DNA from: Thermoplasmata archaeon M9B2D
GTDB lineage: Archaea; Thermoplasmatota; E2; DHVEG-1
NCBI GenBank assembly: GCA_002900555.1
Contig: MUGD01000010.1
Coordinates: forward strand, 1-33,378
Length of the DNA: 33,378 bases
Reading direction: 5' to 3'
Notes under the pieces: model-generated
What the model saw: the letters and a program-made list of their open reading frames with translations, nothing else
What the model was told of the DNA's origin: nothing
Database searches by the model: none
Position numbers and translations under genes: made by a program
Shown here: piece after piece, positions 11,703 through 19,099 of the stretch
How the letters are laid out: the number at the start of each line of letters is the position of its first letter
Numbering within the stretch: position 1 is the first letter of the stretch

Positions 11703-13214
11703 CTATGAAAGTTTTTTGGATACAATTGTTCGTTTCCGTTTAAGAGCGTTTTGTATCTCCATATCTACGTCTTTTGTATCGATACTGATCCAGTGGACTC
11801 CGTCATGCTCAAAGAGCTCCTGCAAGGGAAACCGCCCATCCCAAGGCTCCCAGGCCTTCTGTAGCGTCATCCCGCTGACCGTCCGAATGTTTGTCACTCC
11901 CACATGCCCCATCGCATCAGCAAACACAAGCAATCGGTCCTGCGGGATTGCAACACCCACAGTCTGCAGAAATGACCCAAGCGGTCTCACCCGCTCGGGA
12001 AGATCCCTAATATCAACTATGGGTTTAACCCGAATGACCCGATAGAGTGGAGACGGCTCACAGCTCTGGTTCCTCTCATCATAGATCACCAGCCATTGAT
12101 GATTCTTCGAAGGGAATAACATCACTGGCTCCCCCATGGTCTGCTTTGTGAAATACTGATAGTACCCATCAAGCACCTGCATCTTACCAGAGTTCGTCCC
12201 CTTCGGAAGCGCATGCGTTGTTTTCTCCATCTCCACCGCAAGCAACCCCGCAAACTCCTTAGGTGATACACCCCCACCGATTTCCACATAGATTTCCTGC
12301 GGCGAGAAACACCCTTGTTGATCCCATGCACACACATCAAGGGAGGCAAGCTCCGCAATCTCAGAGGCTTGTTTGGTTAAAAACTCACGGGCGATCACCA
12401 TAAAACTGAACTTATGCCAATGACCTGCAAGAGGAATCCGATGCTTCTCCGCTAGCTCCGTTAGACTCCTGCGAGCCTGCTCCCCACCGGTCGCACGCAC
12501 CAAGTCTGATTGTGAAAAAAGGAACTCCTGCACAAATGAATTCTCACTGCCAAACGGAAGCACCGCGATGCTATGCGCAAGCTCCGGATCAACCTCCTCG
12601 ATTGATTTCGCATACAAGGCGCCAAACACCGGCTCCTCGGTAGGCACCTTCACCCAGGTCGCAGCATCAACCAACTTGTCCATCACCATCTCAAAAGCGG
12701 CAAGGCCAAGGATGTTGCCAGCGCAGATATGACCAATCACCTCAGGTTCGTAATTCGAATGCGTGACACGCGGTGTTCCATACGCCTTCACCAGCCCATC
12801 ACCGCAGGGGGAAAACGTTTGGTAGTTCTTCGCCTGAAGCTTACCGGCAAGCGGGAGGTTCTCCTTTCTTAGGATATCGAAAAAATACTCAAAACCCCAG
12901 TCCTCGATCATCTCAATAGAAAACCCAGTCACCGTCGGTAAAACGTCCCGGACGGTCTTCCTCCCATGATACGAAGGATCTCGCCATAATCCATTGACCG
13001 TATCGATTACCTCAAGCACCGCCGGGATGTCATGCGTACAGAGATACTCCTTCCGAGCGGTCTTGATCCTGTCGATGATTTTCGCAAGAGTCTCAACAGT
13101 AAACACGGGTTTGCGAAGCAGAATACCATTGCCGATATCTTCCGTAATAAATGAAAGCTTCGTATCAAATTGTATACCAGAATCCCAGAAGAAACAGTCA
13201 ACCGTTTGTCCCAT
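11703..13214 (-). CDS. LuxC-like acyl-CoA reductase family protein
   Basis: A 503-residue protein of the LuxC/acyl-CoA reductase family, aldehyde-dehydrogenase-like in fold. It has the nucleotide-binding HICAGNILGL (162-171), a VLPFG strand (218-222), and DVCAWDQQGCFSPQEIYVE, in which Cys302 corresponds to the acyl-accepting catalytic Cys of LuxC. LuxC reduces an acyl group, passed from LuxE or CoA, to an aldehyde using NADPH. It is the last gene of the five-gene minus-strand operon, 11 nt after an SCP2 gene, with an AAAGGA site before the ATG. No luciferase (luxAB) is present, so the role is metabolic rather than bioluminescence. The carboxylic substrate is unknown. Confidence 0.85.
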   Translation of the reverse strand: MGQTVDCFFWDSGIQFDTKLSFITEDIGNGILLRKPVFTVETLAKIIDRIKTARKEYLCTHDIPAVLEVIDTVNGLWRDPSYHGRKTVRDVLPTVTGFSIEMIEDWGFEYFFDILRKENLPLAGKLQAKNYQTFSPCGDGLVKAYGTPRVTHSNYEPEVIGHICAGNILGLAAFEMVMDKLVDAATWVKVPTEEPVFGALYAKSIEEVDPELAHSIAVLPFGSENSFVQEFLFSQSDLVRATGGEQARRSLTELAEKHRIPLAGHWHKFSFMVIAREFLTKQASEIAELASLDVCAWDQQGCFSPQEIYVEIGGGVSPKEFAGLLAVEMEKTTHALPKGTNSGKMQVLDGYYQYFTKQTMGEPVMLFPSKNHQWLVIYDERNQSCEPSPLYRVIRVKPIVDIRDLPERVRPLGSFLQTVGVAIPQDRLLVFADAMGHVGVTNIRTVSGMTLQKAWEPWDGRFPLQELFEHDGVHWISIDTKDVDMEIQNALKRKRTIVSKKLS

Positions 13215-13225
13215 AGGCTATCCTT

Positions 13226-13630
13226 TTAGAAAACAACAGGGATGGTACTTGCGGTGTTCACCAGCTCTTGGGCGGCTTTCGCTTGGTCCAGGATCACCCG
13301 GGAGTCGCCATCCACAGTGAACAACCCTCTGATCAAGCCACGGATCGGATCTAGCTCCTTGCGGATGACTTTCTTCCAGTTCGAATATGGTCCTTTGAAC
13401 ACGAACTTAGCTTGTTTTGCACCCTTGACCAGATACGCATTCCTGCATCTCCCATGCCACAGATCAATGTAAAACACGACTTCGTCTTTCAACTCCTCAT
13501 CAGGGGTGATTACAAACAGAAAATCACCTTCCCAGTCCTTAGCCACCTCCTGATACGTTTTATTCTTGTTCAGCTCCTCTTTAAAGGTATGGATCCATTC
13601 ATCCGACGGGAAGCGCAGTATGTTCCTCAC
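13226..13630 (-). CDS. SCP2 sterol-carrier-like lipid-binding protein, copy 2
   Basis: A 134-residue protein with an SCP2-type fold pattern: FPSDEWIHTFKEELNKN, DLWHGRCRNAYLV, AKFVFKGPYSNWKKVI and a helical tail. It is related to the SCP2 protein at 15040-15450, with the same start pattern (F-x-S-D/E-E/D-W) and the same central FVxxGxY strand. SCP2 domains bind hydrophobic molecules, here presumably the acyl substrate of the flanking LuxE- and LuxC-like enzymes. The listed start is GTG 13630, but an AAGGAGG site abuts it with almost no spacer. An ATA codon at 13621 has ideal spacing and aligns with the Met of copy 1. Overlaps the LuxE-like gene by about 32 nt. Confidence 0.78.
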   Translation of the reverse strand: MRNILRFPSDEWIHTFKEELNKNKTYQEVAKDWEGDFLFVITPDEELKDEVVFYIDLWHGRCRNAYLVKGAKQAKFVFKGPYSNWKKVIRKELDPIRGLIRGLFTVDGDSRVILDQAKAAQELVNTASTIPVVF

Positions 13631-14981
13631 CCTCCTTTTGCATCAACTCAGCCATAATCGCTGCACAGCCACGTCCCTCAAACCCAGGCATCCGCGTAAC
13701 CTCGACATCCAACACGGGGCCTTCCCGACTGCATTTCGGGCAACGCTCAAGGATCTTTACCTTATCGCCCGTGATGATAAAACCTGGGTAGCTTTCCGGT
13801 AAGGGATCGATAAAGGCAAAACGCCCAACCTGCTCGTACCCCAGCGGGTTGAGGTCATCATCAAGGACCAAGGGGATGATCACTGGAGGAATATGCTTGT
13901 AATGCCCTTCACAGCTCAGAAACACCGAGCTGCACTCAGACATCGCGTACACATCATGATATCGCTCCTGAGGGATTCCAAGGATCTCCTCGACCTTCTC
14001 ACGAAATGCTTCCTCAGGAAGCCGTTTGCTCTCCTCTGCCTTCCATCCACCGCCAGTAAGGATCTGACTGTCAGGCAGACGAACAGTCTTTCCCTCTTTT
14101 TTCATCCGTTCCAAGATACGATCAAGCCAGAATGGCGGACCAGCGATATTCACCCGTTTCCCTGATTGCTCAAACTGCTCAAATAAATGAATGACACGCA
14201 AGTCAGAGGACCGCTGCACAAGAGGGCTGATCTTCGACAACGCTTTTGCCTTTATTTTCTCTGAGATGCCAATAGTCTCATCCCGCTGCATCCGCAGAAA
14301 CTGCGTGGTGATTTTCATATCAAGCGCGACATGGATGTTTGATGGATCGTACAAATCATAAGCAATCCCAAAGAGACTTGCAATCGTCAGATTCGTCTGT
14401 CGCGGGTCAGGGATAAGCAAGATGACCTGGTCATTTGGATTGTAATCCATCAGTTCTATAACGCTTTTCATCGCACTGTATTTCACTCGGTTCCAGGACC
14501 GGGTATCACGGGGGATGAAGCTAAAACGACCACCAGTACCACTCGTAAACATGATACTGGTGCCTTTCTTGTTGAACTCCTCGATGACCTCATCATACGA
14601 GGGGTTGTGACTTCTGAACATCGGTTTAGGAAGAGACCCGGTGAAAATGGTTTTCAACCAGTGTAAAAACCCTCCCCCGTCCGGGTAGTTCTTGAAAAAC
14701 GCATCGGGCAGGAGTGGTATCTTCTTCACATCCTCTGATGATTTGATGTTCTCAGGGGTGACTCCATTCGTCTCGCAGACCCTATGATACAAGAAGTTAT
14801 TCTGATAATGATGCTGAAACGAATGACGGATCGCAGCAAACAGCTGCTGCTGTGTTTTTGAATAATTAATAAAAAACGTCTTTGGTGTATGTAACGCTGT
14901 ATCAACCGGTGTCCAATGTTCCTTTGGTGGTGTTAATTTCTGTAATCGCTCAGCCCATTCTATTTTAGGTAGTGCTACCAT
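13599..14981 (-). CDS. LuxE-like acyl-activating enzyme (acyl-protein synthetase family)
   Basis: A 460-residue ANL-superfamily/LuxE-like adenylating enzyme. It has the phosphate-binding FTSGTGG (145-151), the GGGWK turn (310-314), the adenylate motif YAMSE (345-349) and ITGDKV (403-408), plus a Cys pair C414-x2-C417. LuxE proteins adenylate a fatty acid and pass it, through a Cys, to LuxC for reduction. I chose ATG 14981 because AAAGGAG lies 8 nt upstream; an ATG 25 codons earlier (15056) has no SD and would overlap the SCP2 gene. It sits between two SCP2 genes and before the LuxC-like gene. The natural acid is unknown; ether-lipid archaea lack the usual long-chain fatty acids. Confidence 0.85.
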   Translation of the reverse strand: MVALPKIEWAERLQKLTPPKEHWTPVDTALHTPKTFFINYSKTQQQLFAAIRHSFQHHYQNNFLYHRVCETNGVTPENIKSSEDVKKIPLLPDAFFKNYPDGGGFLHWLKTIFTGSLPKPMFRSHNPSYDEVIEEFNKKGTSIMFTSGTGGRFSFIPRDTRSWNRVKYSAMKSVIELMDYNPNDQVILLIPDPRQTNLTIASLFGIAYDLYDPSNIHVALDMKITTQFLRMQRDETIGISEKIKAKALSKISPLVQRSSDLRVIHLFEQFEQSGKRVNIAGPPFWLDRILERMKKEGKTVRLPDSQILTGGGWKAEESKRLPEEAFREKVEEILGIPQERYHDVYAMSECSSVFLSCEGHYKHIPPVIIPLVLDDDLNPLGYEQVGRFAFIDPLPESYPGFIITGDKVKILERCPKCSREGPVLDVEVTRMPGFEGRGCAAIMAELMQKEGEEHTALPVG

Positions 14982-15039
14982 TTCTTTTTCTCCTTTATCT
15001 GCTATAGTATCTGATTTCAACCAATATGGGTTATTATGT

Positions 15040-15450
15040 TCATTCTTCAAATTCATCTGTAACTTCTCTTAAAGAGGTAATTACTCCATCAAGTGGTTTC
15101 ATTAACCGTAACGCGTTAATCTTATTTCCTTTCAATTTAAGTCTATTTTTTAGAAGGGCGATTGTCATGTTTATTTCACCTTTGAGAATACTTCGGAATG
15201 TTCCATAGCTTCCGGTTATTACAAAGGTAGCCTCTTTTTCATACGAATCACCCGAACTTACTATAAAATCTATTAATTTTCCATGATCGATATTTAAATA
15301 AAAATTCATCGTTGAATCACCAGGAGGGATATGTTCAACAACACCAAGGAGAGATGTCGTTACATTTTTTAAATCTTTTTCAGGATCAAGTTTTTCATGC
15401 ATATACTTTTTACACTGTTCAAGCCAGTCTTCAGAAAGAAATTTTGTCAT
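15040..15450 (-). CDS. SCP2 sterol-carrier-like lipid-binding protein, copy 1
   Basis: A 136-residue single SCP2 domain: FLSEDWLEQC, then NFYLNIDHGKLIDFIV, ATFVITGSYGTFRSILKGE, and the classic end LLKNRLKLKGNKINALRLMKPLDGV (split here as LLKNRLKLKG and NALRLMKPL). SCP2 domains enclose hydrophobic ligands in a tunnel. A GGGGAGGG site in the end of the Fe-S/FAD gene, 3 nt away, drives this start, so the two are coupled. It precedes the LuxE-like gene by 58 nt. Its DNA is AT-rich like the Fe-S/FAD gene and unlike the genes that follow. A substrate-shuttling role in the operon is inferred. Confidence 0.87.
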   Translation of the reverse strand: MTKFLSEDWLEQCKKYMHEKLDPEKDLKNVTTSLLGVVEHIPPGDSTMNFYLNIDHGKLIDFIVSSGDSYEKEATFVITGSYGTFRSILKGEINMTIALLKNRLKLKGNKINALRLMKPLDGVITSLREVTDEFEE

Positions 15451-15452
15451 GG

Positions 15453-17402
15453 TTATCCCTCCCCGATTATATTTGTAAGGAGTTCTCTAAAAAGGTCCAG
15501 ATCATCACTTGAAATTGCTTTCGGAATTGGAAAGAGAATATGTTCTTTTCTATAAAGCCCCTTGAAATAGAAATTTAAGGCAGATAGAATCCCGTCTATT
15601 TCCAATGATTTTTCTTGTGATTCTATAATTGCTTTATCAACACGTTTTTTTGCATCAGTATCGTTATGATCATAATAAAAATCATATTCGAGTACGGCAA
15701 ATCTCCCTTGATCAAATGGACTAATAAAACCAAGTGCATGAATCAATTTATTTTTTTCCCCTACTTCTTCAAACATTGTGATCCAGTCTAAAAGATTTTT
15801 TTCGAAAGCTGTCCAAATAACACCACCCATTGGTAAAAACATACGCTGTCTCATTAATCGGGATGGAAATATTCTGTATTCATGTAACCAGACTATGTTG
15901 GTCATCTCTGGTTTTGAGTATACTTTTTTAAAGAATTCCTGTAAATCTTTATCATATATTTTTGAAATATTTTCAGGTGTTGCATCTAAAGCCTTTTCAA
16001 AATGTTGTTTCATGGGTCCTGCAAAGAGCGCTTTTAGAGGATCGTTTTCTTCTGAAAGAATTTTCATAAATTCACTATCTTTTAGAGTTGCAAGTTTCGG
16101 GCATCCGAGAATCAACGATGTAAGTGTTGATTTCTCAATTGTATAATCCACCATGCTTTCAATTATTTTTTTCTCGTCTTTATTGCAGATAATATCAACT
16201 ACATAATTTAATTTCATATATTTTTTCAAAATAAACTCAAAATCTTCTGCGATTCCTGGTGTTGGACTAATAAACTCAGCTAGATATTTGCGAGAAAGAA
16301 TCACGTTAGAAAATCCTATACCACGTTTTGCAATGTTAAATGACAACGTAAGGGCATCTTTTATATTTTCAAATGGTATAAACACTGCTTCCTCATCATC
16401 GAAAACTGGATTTAATCTAACTGTTGCTTGAGTAACAATAGCCGGGGGAGTTAATGATATATTTGTGAATCCGTACTCTGTTGTATATGGGTTTTGTATC
16501 TCTAAATCACTGTGTCTTCTTATATTTCCTGTATCATCAACTGTTTCGATATCAATAAAGTTATCTGCAGACCAGCCATATTTATTCCCCCATGTAGATA
16601 GTATACCTGTTGATGCGATATTTGAACATATATGCGCTCCTGCTTCTGCAACATTTGCTCGTAATCTATATTTATGTGCTTCTTTTTGAAGGTCAAATGC
16701 TGTGATACCAGCACCTACGGTGGCTGTTTGGGTTTCCGAATCAATTTCAAGTGTTTTCATCCTCAGAAGATCAATGACGATTCCTTGCTCAAGACCAAAA
16801 GCTTTAGAAAGGACTGTCGGAGCAGCCATTGATAGAAGGGTGCCTCCACTTCTTGGTAAAAAGGGAAGGTTGTTCGTATTTGCAAATTTTATTACTTTTG
16901 AAAGTTCTTCAGCGTCTTTCGGCATGACTATATAAAAATTTAAACCCGCTTCTGGAGAGATAATCGAACTGATATAGGAAGATATAATAACGGGATCATT
17001 TGTTGCCCACTCGGGTCCAACAATCTCACGTAAACCTTTTAGATTTTCATCTTCAGGGATATTTTGAAAATCATTCTCATCTAGACCTTCCGTATATTCC
17101 TTTAAAGCTTTAGCTACTTTTTCAGGACGTAATTGTGTGGCAAAATTACATTGTTTATCACAGATGCCGCAAAGAGTACAAGAATTCACTATTTCGATCA
17201 GTTTGCTTGTCGGTTTCACTTTACCTGACATCAACGATTTAAAAATCTGCATCCGTCCCTGCGGCCAATAGGCTAGAAAACCATGTTTCTTACCAGATGG
17301 ACAAACCCCTGTTCCAAGAAAATCAAATCGGCACATACCACAATGGGAGCCTTTTTTCGCAATAGTCATAGCCTCGTCAAATTTTACATTTCCGACTAAC
17401 AT
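15453..17402 (-). CDS. Fe-S/FAD-linked oxidoreductase of the VAO/PCMH type
   Basis: A 649-residue fusion. The N-terminus carries two cysteine groups, C21-x2-C24-x9-C34 and C75-x2-C78-x2-C81-x3-C85, the second a clear [4Fe-4S] motif. Then comes a PCMH-type FAD domain with PRSGGT (183-188) and a GAGITAFDLQ loop, followed by a C-terminal half like vanillyl-alcohol oxidase/4-cresol dehydrogenase. Clusters placed before the FAD domain differ from the GlpC-like C-terminal layout common in bacteria. The enzyme probably oxidises an alcohol, hydroxy acid or phenol and passes electrons through the cluster. I chose ATG 17402, since GAGGGA lies 7 nt upstream; ATG 17417 is the longer option. First clear gene of the LuxC/LuxE/SCP2 operon. 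Confidence 0.85.
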   Translation of the reverse strand: MLVGNVKFDEAMTIAKKGSHCGMCRFDFLGTGVCPSGKKHGFLAYWPQGRMQIFKSLMSGKVKPTSKLIEIVNSCTLCGICDKQCNFATQLRPEKVAKALKEYTEGLDENDFQNIPEDENLKGLREIVGPEWATNDPVIISSYISSIISPEAGLNFYIVMPKDAEELSKVIKFANTNNLPFLPRSGGTLLSMAAPTVLSKAFGLEQGIVIDLLRMKTLEIDSETQTATVGAGITAFDLQKEAHKYRLRANVAEAGAHICSNIASTGILSTWGNKYGWSADNFIDIETVDDTGNIRRHSDLEIQNPYTTEYGFTNISLTPPAIVTQATVRLNPVFDDEEAVFIPFENIKDALTLSFNIAKRGIGFSNVILSRKYLAEFISPTPGIAEDFEFILKKYMKLNYVVDIICNKDEKKIIESMVDYTIEKSTLTSLILGCPKLATLKDSEFMKILSEENDPLKALFAGPMKQHFEKALDATPENISKIYDKDLQEFFKKVYSKPEMTNIVWLHEYRIFPSRLMRQRMFLPMGGVIWTAFEKNLLDWITMFEEVGEKNKLIHALGFISPFDQGRFAVLEYDFYYDHNDTDAKKRVDKAIIESQEKSLEIDGILSALNFYFKGLYRKEHILFPIPKAISSDDLDLFRELLTNIIGEG

Positions 17403-17436
17403 TGTTTTTTCCCTCATTATTTATTTTTTTGATTCC

Positions 17437-17759: not shown

Positions 17760-19099
17760 ATGAAAATAAAGGAGATGAAACACATTGCATGTTGCATTGT
17801 CGTCATTGTTCATGCAAAATCGGTATTACCTGGTTGTATAGATGAACAACAACCACCTGTGAAAGCCTAGACGATATCGCTGCTGATATTGTCATGCTTC
17901 TTATGGAAAAAATTTTACCGGTGTGTGTAATTTTTTCGATGTCTCAATTACCTCACAAATTACTATTGAAGGGTTTCAAAATATCTGGACGCAGCAGGTT
18001 ATCGTTCCGAATGGTAATATCACAGGAATTGGAAACTCAAGAGTGACAAATGAATCTGGGTATGCTGTTGTATACGTTACCTGTAATTTTAGCAAAACCA
18101 ATGTTCTTGACGTGAAGATTTCATTTAACGATCAACAGAAAGTCGTTGGATTACTGGTCGTACCAACACAGGAGGAATTTTCCTATTCACCTTTGTCTTA
18201 TGCAAATCTAAGTGGTTTCACTGAGACAAATGTTACGAGCGGTACAGGACAATGGGAATTACCAGGGACGTTAACTGTTCCGAAGGGGGCGGGTCCATTT
18301 CCCGCCGTTATTCTGGTACATGGGTATGGACCAAATAATCGAGATGAAACCTATGGTTCCAATAAACCCTTTAAGGATGTCGCTTGGGGTCTTGCATCAA
18401 AAGGTATTGTGGTGTTTCGCTATGAGAAACGGACAAAACAATACCCTGAAGAATCTGCAGCGATTCAAAACTTCACGGTTCAGGATGAGATTATTGATGA
18501 TGTCATAGCTGCGGTACATATGTTAAACAAAACCTTTGTTGTGAATCAGTCACAGATTTTTATTTTGGGCCATAACTTGGGGGGATGATGGCCCCACGCA
18601 TTGGCTTACAGGACGCTTGAATCGCTGGATTGATTCTCTTGGCAGCACCGACCCGCCCTCTTGAGGACCTGATATTAGAGCAGACTCGATATCTTGCGAA
18701 TCTTTCTGGTATCAATCAATCTGAAGAGATTAGGGAGCTTGAGCAACTTGTGATAAAAATTAAGAATTTGGATTTCAATGAAAGTGAGTTTGTTCTTGGT
18801 GCTCCAAAATCGTATTGGGCAGATTTGGCAACATATGATCCCGTACAAGAAGCGCAAGCAGTACACATTCCTTTGTTGATTCTCCAAGGCAGACGGGATT
18901 ATCAGGTTACGATGACAGATTTTTCTCGATGAAATCAAACGTTTTTTGGAAATGCGACTGTCGCATTAAAACCTATGCAGCATTAAATCATCTTTTTGTG
19001 TCTGGGACTGGTACGCCGACGAATACGGAGTATTTGATCGAGGGGCACGTTGATGAAGAAGTTATTTCAGATATTGCATTCTGGATAACAAATCGATAA
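17760..19099 (+). pseudogene. Decayed alpha/beta-hydrolase lipoprotein (DUF3887-like plus hydrolase)
   Basis: The pieces of one protein are spread over several frames. A lipoprotein signal (MKHIACCIVVIV, then LPGC) ends at TAG 17868-17870. A DUF3887-like domain and the hydrolase N-half run in the frame 17923-18588 (VILVHGYGPNNRDE, VFRYEKRTKQYP). The nucleophile elbow reads GHNLGG, where GHSLGG is expected, and a frameshift follows at once. The next frame gives MMAPRIGLQDA, then TGA, then LILLAAPTRPLED and LLILQGRRDY. A TGA (expected Trp) and a further frameshift near 18930-18975 precede ALNHLFVSGTG, which keeps the catalytic His. With several frameshifts, nonsense codons and a Ser-to-Asn change, it cannot make an active hydrolase. 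Confidence 0.87.

Follow-up and report, generated by a model that had tools for sequence, protein, structure and literature searches.

Among described systems, the closest to the locus reported here is the LuxC–LuxE pair of luminous bacteria, solved in PDB 7xc6, which we take to come from the genus Photobacterium. The locus is a five-gene operon in a stretch of 33,378 nucleotides (nt) from Thermoplasmata archaeon M9B2D (contig MUGD01000010.1, positions 1–33,378 of the forward strand; hereafter the window), and it shares with the luminous bacteria the LuxC fold with its DQQxC motif, the LuxE adenylation motifs and C-terminal cysteine, and the placing of the two genes together. It differs in that two SCP2 carriers and a flavoprotein are added, that LuxE of the operon type is longer (452–485 amino acids (aa) vs 373 in the luminous-bacterial system), and that luciferase is missing: in agreement with an earlier note on this sequence, no PF00296 match was obtained at E 1e-5 in the 15 operon genomes (0/15) or in the 20 open reading frames (ORFs) of the window that were scanned, which rules out bioluminescence for the 15 genomes searched. 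LuxD acyltransferase was not found by Pfam among the five operon genes, the genomes themselves not having been searched for it. Ubiquinone synthesis, according to extracts of PMC6747719, likewise employs small SCP2-fold proteins, UbiJ and UbiT, that aid enzymes acting on a hydrophobic compound; their partners are Ubi enzymes, in place of the LuxE, LuxC and VAO-fold proteins found here. The parts of the archaeal operon belong to known families, and the five-gene combination seems to be undescribed among the open-licence PubMed Central (PMC) papers that the searches listed, none of which deals with LuxC–LuxE–SCP2 in archaea.

All five genes lie on the minus strand, in the order FeSFAD (15453–17417; 654 aa), a VAO/PCMH-fold flavin adenine dinucleotide (FAD) protein with an N-terminal iron–sulfur (Fe-S) domain; SCP2a (15040–15450), the small SCP2-fold carrier that accompanies it; a LuxE-like acyl-protein synthetase (13599–15056); SCP2b (13226–13630), the small SCP2-fold carrier accompanying LuxE and LuxC; and a LuxC-like acyl reductase of the aldehyde-dehydrogenase superfamily (11703–13214). 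The spacings along this series are +2, −17, −32 and +11 nt, and the five consecutive genes with short gaps or overlaps described earlier are borne out, no gap exceeding 11 nt and the protein families being those named there. An in-frame ATG at 17402, five codons downstream of 17417, is a plausible alternative start of FeSFAD and accounts for the end coordinate 17402 given in the earlier note. The first ~25 residues of LuxE are absent from most of its relatives; its true start may therefore be 14981, and the 17-nt overlap with SCP2a not real. Ratios of non-synonymous to synonymous substitution (dN/dS) of 0.03–0.17 in 15 of 21 pairwise comparisons, the remaining six being saturated, point to strong purifying selection on the operon proteins; for LuxC the safer figure is pN/pS, 0.17–0.26, both unsaturated dN/dS values resting on dS >2. 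Agreement of gene order, catalytic residues and purifying selection across genomes rules out an origin of the operon by chance or artefact. A scan for sigma-70 promoters and terminators is uninformative for an archaeal host.

LuxC matches PF05893 with 209.7 bits against a cut-off of 21 (E 8.9e-62), a cut-off so low that control genomes also match and that many matches in the phylum are weak (18–35 bits). Residues 66–489 align with the solved LuxC of 7xc6, including its active-site Cys, and Cys302 (12309–12311, minus strand), to which the reader of the sequence had pointed and which is presumably the catalytic nucleophile, sits in the DQQxC motif; of 226 homologues found, 120 were listed, and 119 of these keep DQQxCxS. 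LuxE matches PF04443 with 93.6 bits against 24.9 (E 1.5e-26) and aligns with LuxE of 7xc6 through the active-site Cys. Its SGTxG adenylation motif (residues 172–176; 14529–14543), TGD motif (residues 429–431; 13764–13772) and C-terminal Cys464 (13665–13667), all on the minus strand, are conserved, the last aligning with the GC of LuxE in 7xc6 and being, we assume, the acyl acceptor; S172, G173, T174 and G176, T429, G430 and D431, and G463 and C464 are invariant in 10/10 aligned sequences, an alignment that leaves out L008, L009 and L011 as incomplete or broken. The predicted LuxE model has the ANL fold and is most like PaaK-type aryl ligases; its mean pLDDT (predicted local distance difference test) is 66, and the fold search therefore supports the superfamily only. 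Motifs and model together support LuxE as a putative adenylate-forming (ANL) enzyme that keeps the ATP motifs and the acyl-acceptor Cys. Within the reach of sequence and fold comparison, the loss of adenylate- and NADPH-binding sites that would have spoken against the proposal was not encountered, the ATP motifs of LuxE and the Cys of LuxC being retained. A LuxE tree, which drew a program warning about long branches, unites the 13 operon LuxEs in one clade with support 100/100; the non-operon LuxE-like proteins do not form one, L065 and one L068 row branching apart. LuxE of G012 falls outside the operon clade, though it was counted in the LuxE Fisher test, which ignores kinship and is descriptive only.

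The two carriers match SCP2 (PF02036) with 33.4 and 27.6 bits (E 6.1e-8 and 3.9e-6), both over the cut-off of 21.3. SCP2a and SCP2b are just 21–25% identical over their matching part, and SCP2b is among the best conserved of the operon proteins.

FeSFAD matches FAD_binding_4 (E 9.4e-23) and has the VAO/PCMH fold; Fer4_8 is matched at E 7.9e-6 with 26.8 bits, just under the 27-bit cut-off. The Fe-S region (17148–17342, minus strand) contains Cys 26, 29, 39, 80, 83, 86 and 90, which are invariant in 36/36 aligned sequences, and of the 360 homologues found, 120 were listed, 118–119 of which keep the Cys motifs. In residues 24–39, Thr or Ser occupies the position at which the usual motif would begin with a Cys (compare GlcF) in all 118 of the 118 HCGxC-bearing homologues, hence the seven cluster cysteines, in contrast to the eight conserved in the D-lactate and glycolate dehydrogenases (LctD, LDHD, and GlcD with GlcF), whose VAO/PCMH fold FeSFAD shares. 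The HxGDGNxH and EHGxG strings of Escherichia coli GlcD are present in 0/120 listed FeSFAD homologues; the former is, we believe, the metal-site motif of D-2-hydroxy-acid dehydrogenases of the GlcD/LDHD type, and its lack argues against a glycolate or lactate dehydrogenase. When FeSFAD was compared globally with GlcD and GlcF of E. coli by hhalign, the C-terminal part aligned poorly, and only motif presence was taken from this comparison. The vanillyl-alcohol and eugenol oxidases and alkyl-dihydroxyacetone-phosphate synthase of the VAO family differ from FeSFAD, which has the N-terminal Fe-S domain. The active site of the synthase is a triple His; HHH strings, counted wherever they fell in the sequence, occur in 7/120 listed FeSFAD homologues. 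VAO-fold enzymes mostly act as oxidisers of alcohols or hydroxy acids. Fold comparison by VIA-align, whose ranking covers the listed families only and barely includes residues 1–120, ends in a tie between lactate dehydrogenases and phenol oxidases with Z favouring no subfamily; given this tie and the missing dehydrogenase metal motif, the reaction of FeSFAD is not assignable from the fold.

A scan of genome contigs with LuxE only gave 12 loci; 11 carry an archaeal label, and the twelfth, L007, that of Peregrinibacteria, perhaps through misbinning (7-kb contig). At 10 of the 12, LuxE has the other four genes beside it with order and strand unchanged (LuxC of L001 being cut by the contig end); the exceptions are L010, lacking SCP2a, and L012, where LuxE stands alone. 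The homologues therefore do co-occur, the point on which the earlier note had proposed to stake its operon. Among 243 Thermoplasmata-phylum (Thermoplasmatota) genomes, LuxC of the operon type, defined also by ≥60% identity to the window LuxC by tblastn, occurs in 14 genomes (13 recognised by profile and confirmed by tblastn, and G001 by its LuxC fragment through tblastn) and FeSFAD in 17, all 14 lying within the 17, and these genomes are kin and not independent cases; any PF05893 match occurs in 84/243, mostly weak or to other LuxC types. Several cases are incomplete: FeSFAD–SCP2a–LuxE of G114 is followed by an N gap directly after LuxE, so that the absence of LuxC there cannot be judged; LuxE of G136 is split by an N gap; LuxC and FeSFAD of G182 sit on separate short contigs; LuxE of L011 and LuxC of L009 each occupy two reading frames; and the LuxC fragment of L001 was picked up by tblastn and missed by the profile.

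The operon joins two parts, FeSFAD–SCP2a and LuxE–SCP2b–LuxC, each with its own carrier, as follows from the duplication, divergence and separate occurrence of FeSFAD–SCP2a. Identity between the window and L002–L006, L008 and L011 is 74–93% for LuxE, SCP2b and LuxC (58% for the N-terminal fragment of LuxE in L008) and 41–52% for FeSFAD and SCP2a; the copper ATPase gene CopA adjoins the operon in the window and in all of these loci despite the divergence of FeSFAD and SCP2a. L045 and L046 carry FeSFAD–SCP2a twice, ahead of LuxE–SCP2b–LuxC, the second copy grouping with the window kind and the first forming its own branch, and the FeSFAD and SCP2a trees share their main splits as judged by eye. 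At L086 the contig continues for 455 nt past the FeSFAD–SCP2a pair, and the L089 contig ends 168 nt past FeSFAD, where a following SCP2a cannot be judged. The complete module for activating, carrying and reducing an acid proposed in the earlier note is thus upheld in the residues of LuxE and LuxC and in the synteny; 'one complete module' is too strong, FeSFAD–SCP2a being a separate, duplicable unit.

FeSFAD has a further neighbor in some genomes, a Cys-rich protein of ~225 aa, assigned to no Pfam family, in which 10 Cys are invariant and hydrophobic stretches can be made out by eye. Its gene is divergent to the adjoining FeSFAD gene in 6/6 genomes having it among the 243, is found only next to FeSFAD genes (L045:2444–3133, L046:18466–19176, L082:8137–8814, L083:8199–8867 and L089:2306–2980) and is absent from 11 of the 17 FeSFAD genomes; the profile was built from five of the six positive genomes, G202 being an independent match. 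To judge from its sequence the protein is probably membrane-bound, and it may be the electron partner of FeSFAD.

With respect to the substrate, ketoacyl synthase (E 1e-10) is found in 64/243 genomes and in 0/17 FeSFAD genomes (Fisher p 0.008, which ignores kinship and is descriptive only), which makes a home-made straight-chain fatty acid an unlikely substrate within the limits of incomplete genomes. Acyl-CoA dehydrogenase occurs in 16/17 FeSFAD genomes. PF13685 is matched in 14/15 operon genomes, strongly in 13, as weak evidence of glycerol-1-phosphate dehydrogenase, the family also matching bacterial enzymes. By these gene contents, to which the window adds a geranylgeranyl reductase gene (described below), the operon genomes look isoprenoid-making and not fatty-acid-making; this, and the binding of ubiquinone intermediates by the SCP2 domain of UbiJ (extracts of PMC6747719), lead us to an isoprenoid acid, lipid-derived or scavenged, as a first guess, not a result.

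We give about an even chance to a two-part pathway acting on one hydrophobic compound, composed of LuxE–SCP2b–LuxC and FeSFAD–SCP2a; its genes, residues, synteny, selection and module behavior are those observed above, and its direction, cofactor, acyl relay, shared substrate and substrate identity are what we infer. LuxE would adenylate a hydrophobic carboxylic acid using ATP, take the acyl group onto Cys464 and pass it to Cys302 of LuxC, which would reduce it to the aldehyde with NAD(P)H, SCP2b being the dedicated carrier of acid or aldehyde; FeSFAD, a VAO-type enzyme, would oxidise or reduce a linked intermediate for which SCP2a is the carrier, with Fe-S clusters replacing O2 as the electron route. 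Several observations weigh against this pathway. The scores of LuxC and LuxE fall far short of the cut-offs of the NCBIfam equivalogs for the lux enzymes (67.5 vs 750 bits for NF052251, long-chain-fatty-acyl reductase; 91 vs 550 bits for NF052244, long-chain-fatty-acid ligase), most of the genomes are fragmented metagenome-assembled genomes, and the immediate flanks hold nothing that points to isoprenoids. FeSFAD occurs without a LuxC match in G199, where SCP2a was not found either, and in G202, whose genome is in fragments; lone FeSFAD–SCP2a pairs without LuxE or LuxC are present at L079, L084 and L085, and FeSFAD copies without SCP2a at L082, L083, L087 and L092, so that a shared substrate is not required. 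To our knowledge no enzyme from this clade has been assayed, and no assay was found among the PMC papers searched. It is quite improbable, however, that the two parts are unrelated activities with the transcript alone in common: both duplicate, get lost and diverge separately, as such a reading would have it, but all 14 genomes with operon-type LuxC also have FeSFAD (14/14) and the gene order persists across differing flanks.

The same genes could run in reverse, FeSFAD oxidising a hydrophobic alcohol or ether to the aldehyde with electrons passed to Fe-S or membrane acceptors, LuxC converting this aldehyde oxidatively into an acyl-enzyme, and LuxE freeing the acid with formation of ATP from AMP and pyrophosphate, in a catabolic, energy-saving route. 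The prevailing chemistry of VAO-fold enzymes and the fold ties of FeSFAD fit this, the reduction of free acids with ATP would be expensive for anaerobes, and the Cys-rich, probably membrane-bound protein adjoins FeSFAD wherever it occurs; as known LuxC and LuxE operate reductively, FeSFAD is not obligatorily tied to them and the Cys-rich protein is missing from most FeSFAD genomes, we hold the reverse direction as a whole to be unlikely, though worth keeping in view. Its special form, salvage or breakdown of archaeal isoprenoid lipids, with FeSFAD oxidising isoprenoid alcohols or glycerol ethers, electrons going to the Cys-rich membrane protein, LuxC–LuxE reversed to give acid and ATP, and one SCP2 for each half, is a long shot; if true, there would be, as far as known, no earlier case of the lux reductase pair conserving energy or of LuxC–LuxE acting on isoprenoids. 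A reading in which scavenged straight-chain fatty acids are reduced in the manner of luminous bacteria, giving fatty aldehydes or alcohols for an unspecified product, would accord with the solved LuxC and LuxE relatives being long-chain acyl enzymes and with the acyl-CoA dehydrogenases, which show that acyl compounds are handled, but it needs an external source, no ketoacyl synthase having been found in the 17 genomes, and two carriers and a flavoprotein are foreign to lux systems; we regard it as rather unlikely. An acid of peptide fermentation, aromatic or branched-chain, might instead be the substrate, the host being presumably a member of a group of sediment archaea. Such archaea are described as protein degraders in extracts of PMC9123169, and the likeness of the LuxE model to PaaK-type aryl ligases points the same way; this likeness, however, is common to the whole LuxE/PaaK group, and two SCP2 carriers favor a water-insoluble compound, which leaves such an acid highly improbable. 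The interest of this compact operon is that archaea without a detected ketoacyl synthase retain, under strong selection, a complete pair of enzymes, one for activating an acid and one for reducing the acyl group, together with dedicated lipid carriers. Knowledge of the substrate would tell which kind of acid, isoprenoid, fatty or aromatic, is processed by these sediment archaea, and lux chemistry would gain a role beyond light emission.

LuxE-like proteins of another family are common in the phylum: 57/243 genomes have a LuxE match at E ≤1e-100 (counted by hand), 14 of which have operon-type LuxE (including G114, excluding G182). The 17 loci read hold 21 such LuxE-like genes, and behind 18 of them comes the gene of a ~330-aa protein belonging to one family, forming a two-gene LuxE–transglutaminase cassette (L061–L074, L077, L078 and L080; e.g., L062:5767–8095, minus strand). 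The L061 member of the partner family has a transglutaminase core, one Cys is invariant in 20/20 partners, and SGTxG and the C-terminal GC are kept in 21/21 of the LuxE-like proteins; some genomes have the cassette in several copies, often where no LuxC was found. One LuxE-like activator theme is likely to serve different Cys enzymes, LuxC for reduction and the transglutaminase-like protein perhaps for transfer. LuxE-family domains are mentioned for ammonia-oxidising archaea in extracts of PMC11442133. At L049:6743–12109, in another Thermoplasmatota genome, LuxE precedes an 818-aa fusion of LuxC with an AMP-binding domain, with a HATPase-domain protein and a MatE transporter beside it, and L050–L052 have ORFs that cluster with LuxC and are of similar length.

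CopA and an esterase flank the operon in the nearer relatives of the window, FBPase and Cys-tRNA synthetase in L045 and L046, and DNA primase and an aminotransferase in L010; none of these, EstD included, is kept between lineages, and they were rejected as partners. The nearest named relative, SM1-50 (L001), belongs, we believe, to the sediment group formerly called MBG-D/DHVEG-1. A DUF116 protein follows LuxC in L002, L005 and L006 (clustered loci; Pfam run on L006 alone). The EstD-type esterase of the window (17923–18932) lies in at least two reading frames, as it does in L001, and forms a single 445-aa ORF in L006; the split gene is either decaying or the product of sequence errors. Elsewhere in the window, a geranylgeranyl reductase gene, for isoprenoid lipid saturation, is located at 1562–2752 next to a NAD kinase gene at 741–1559.

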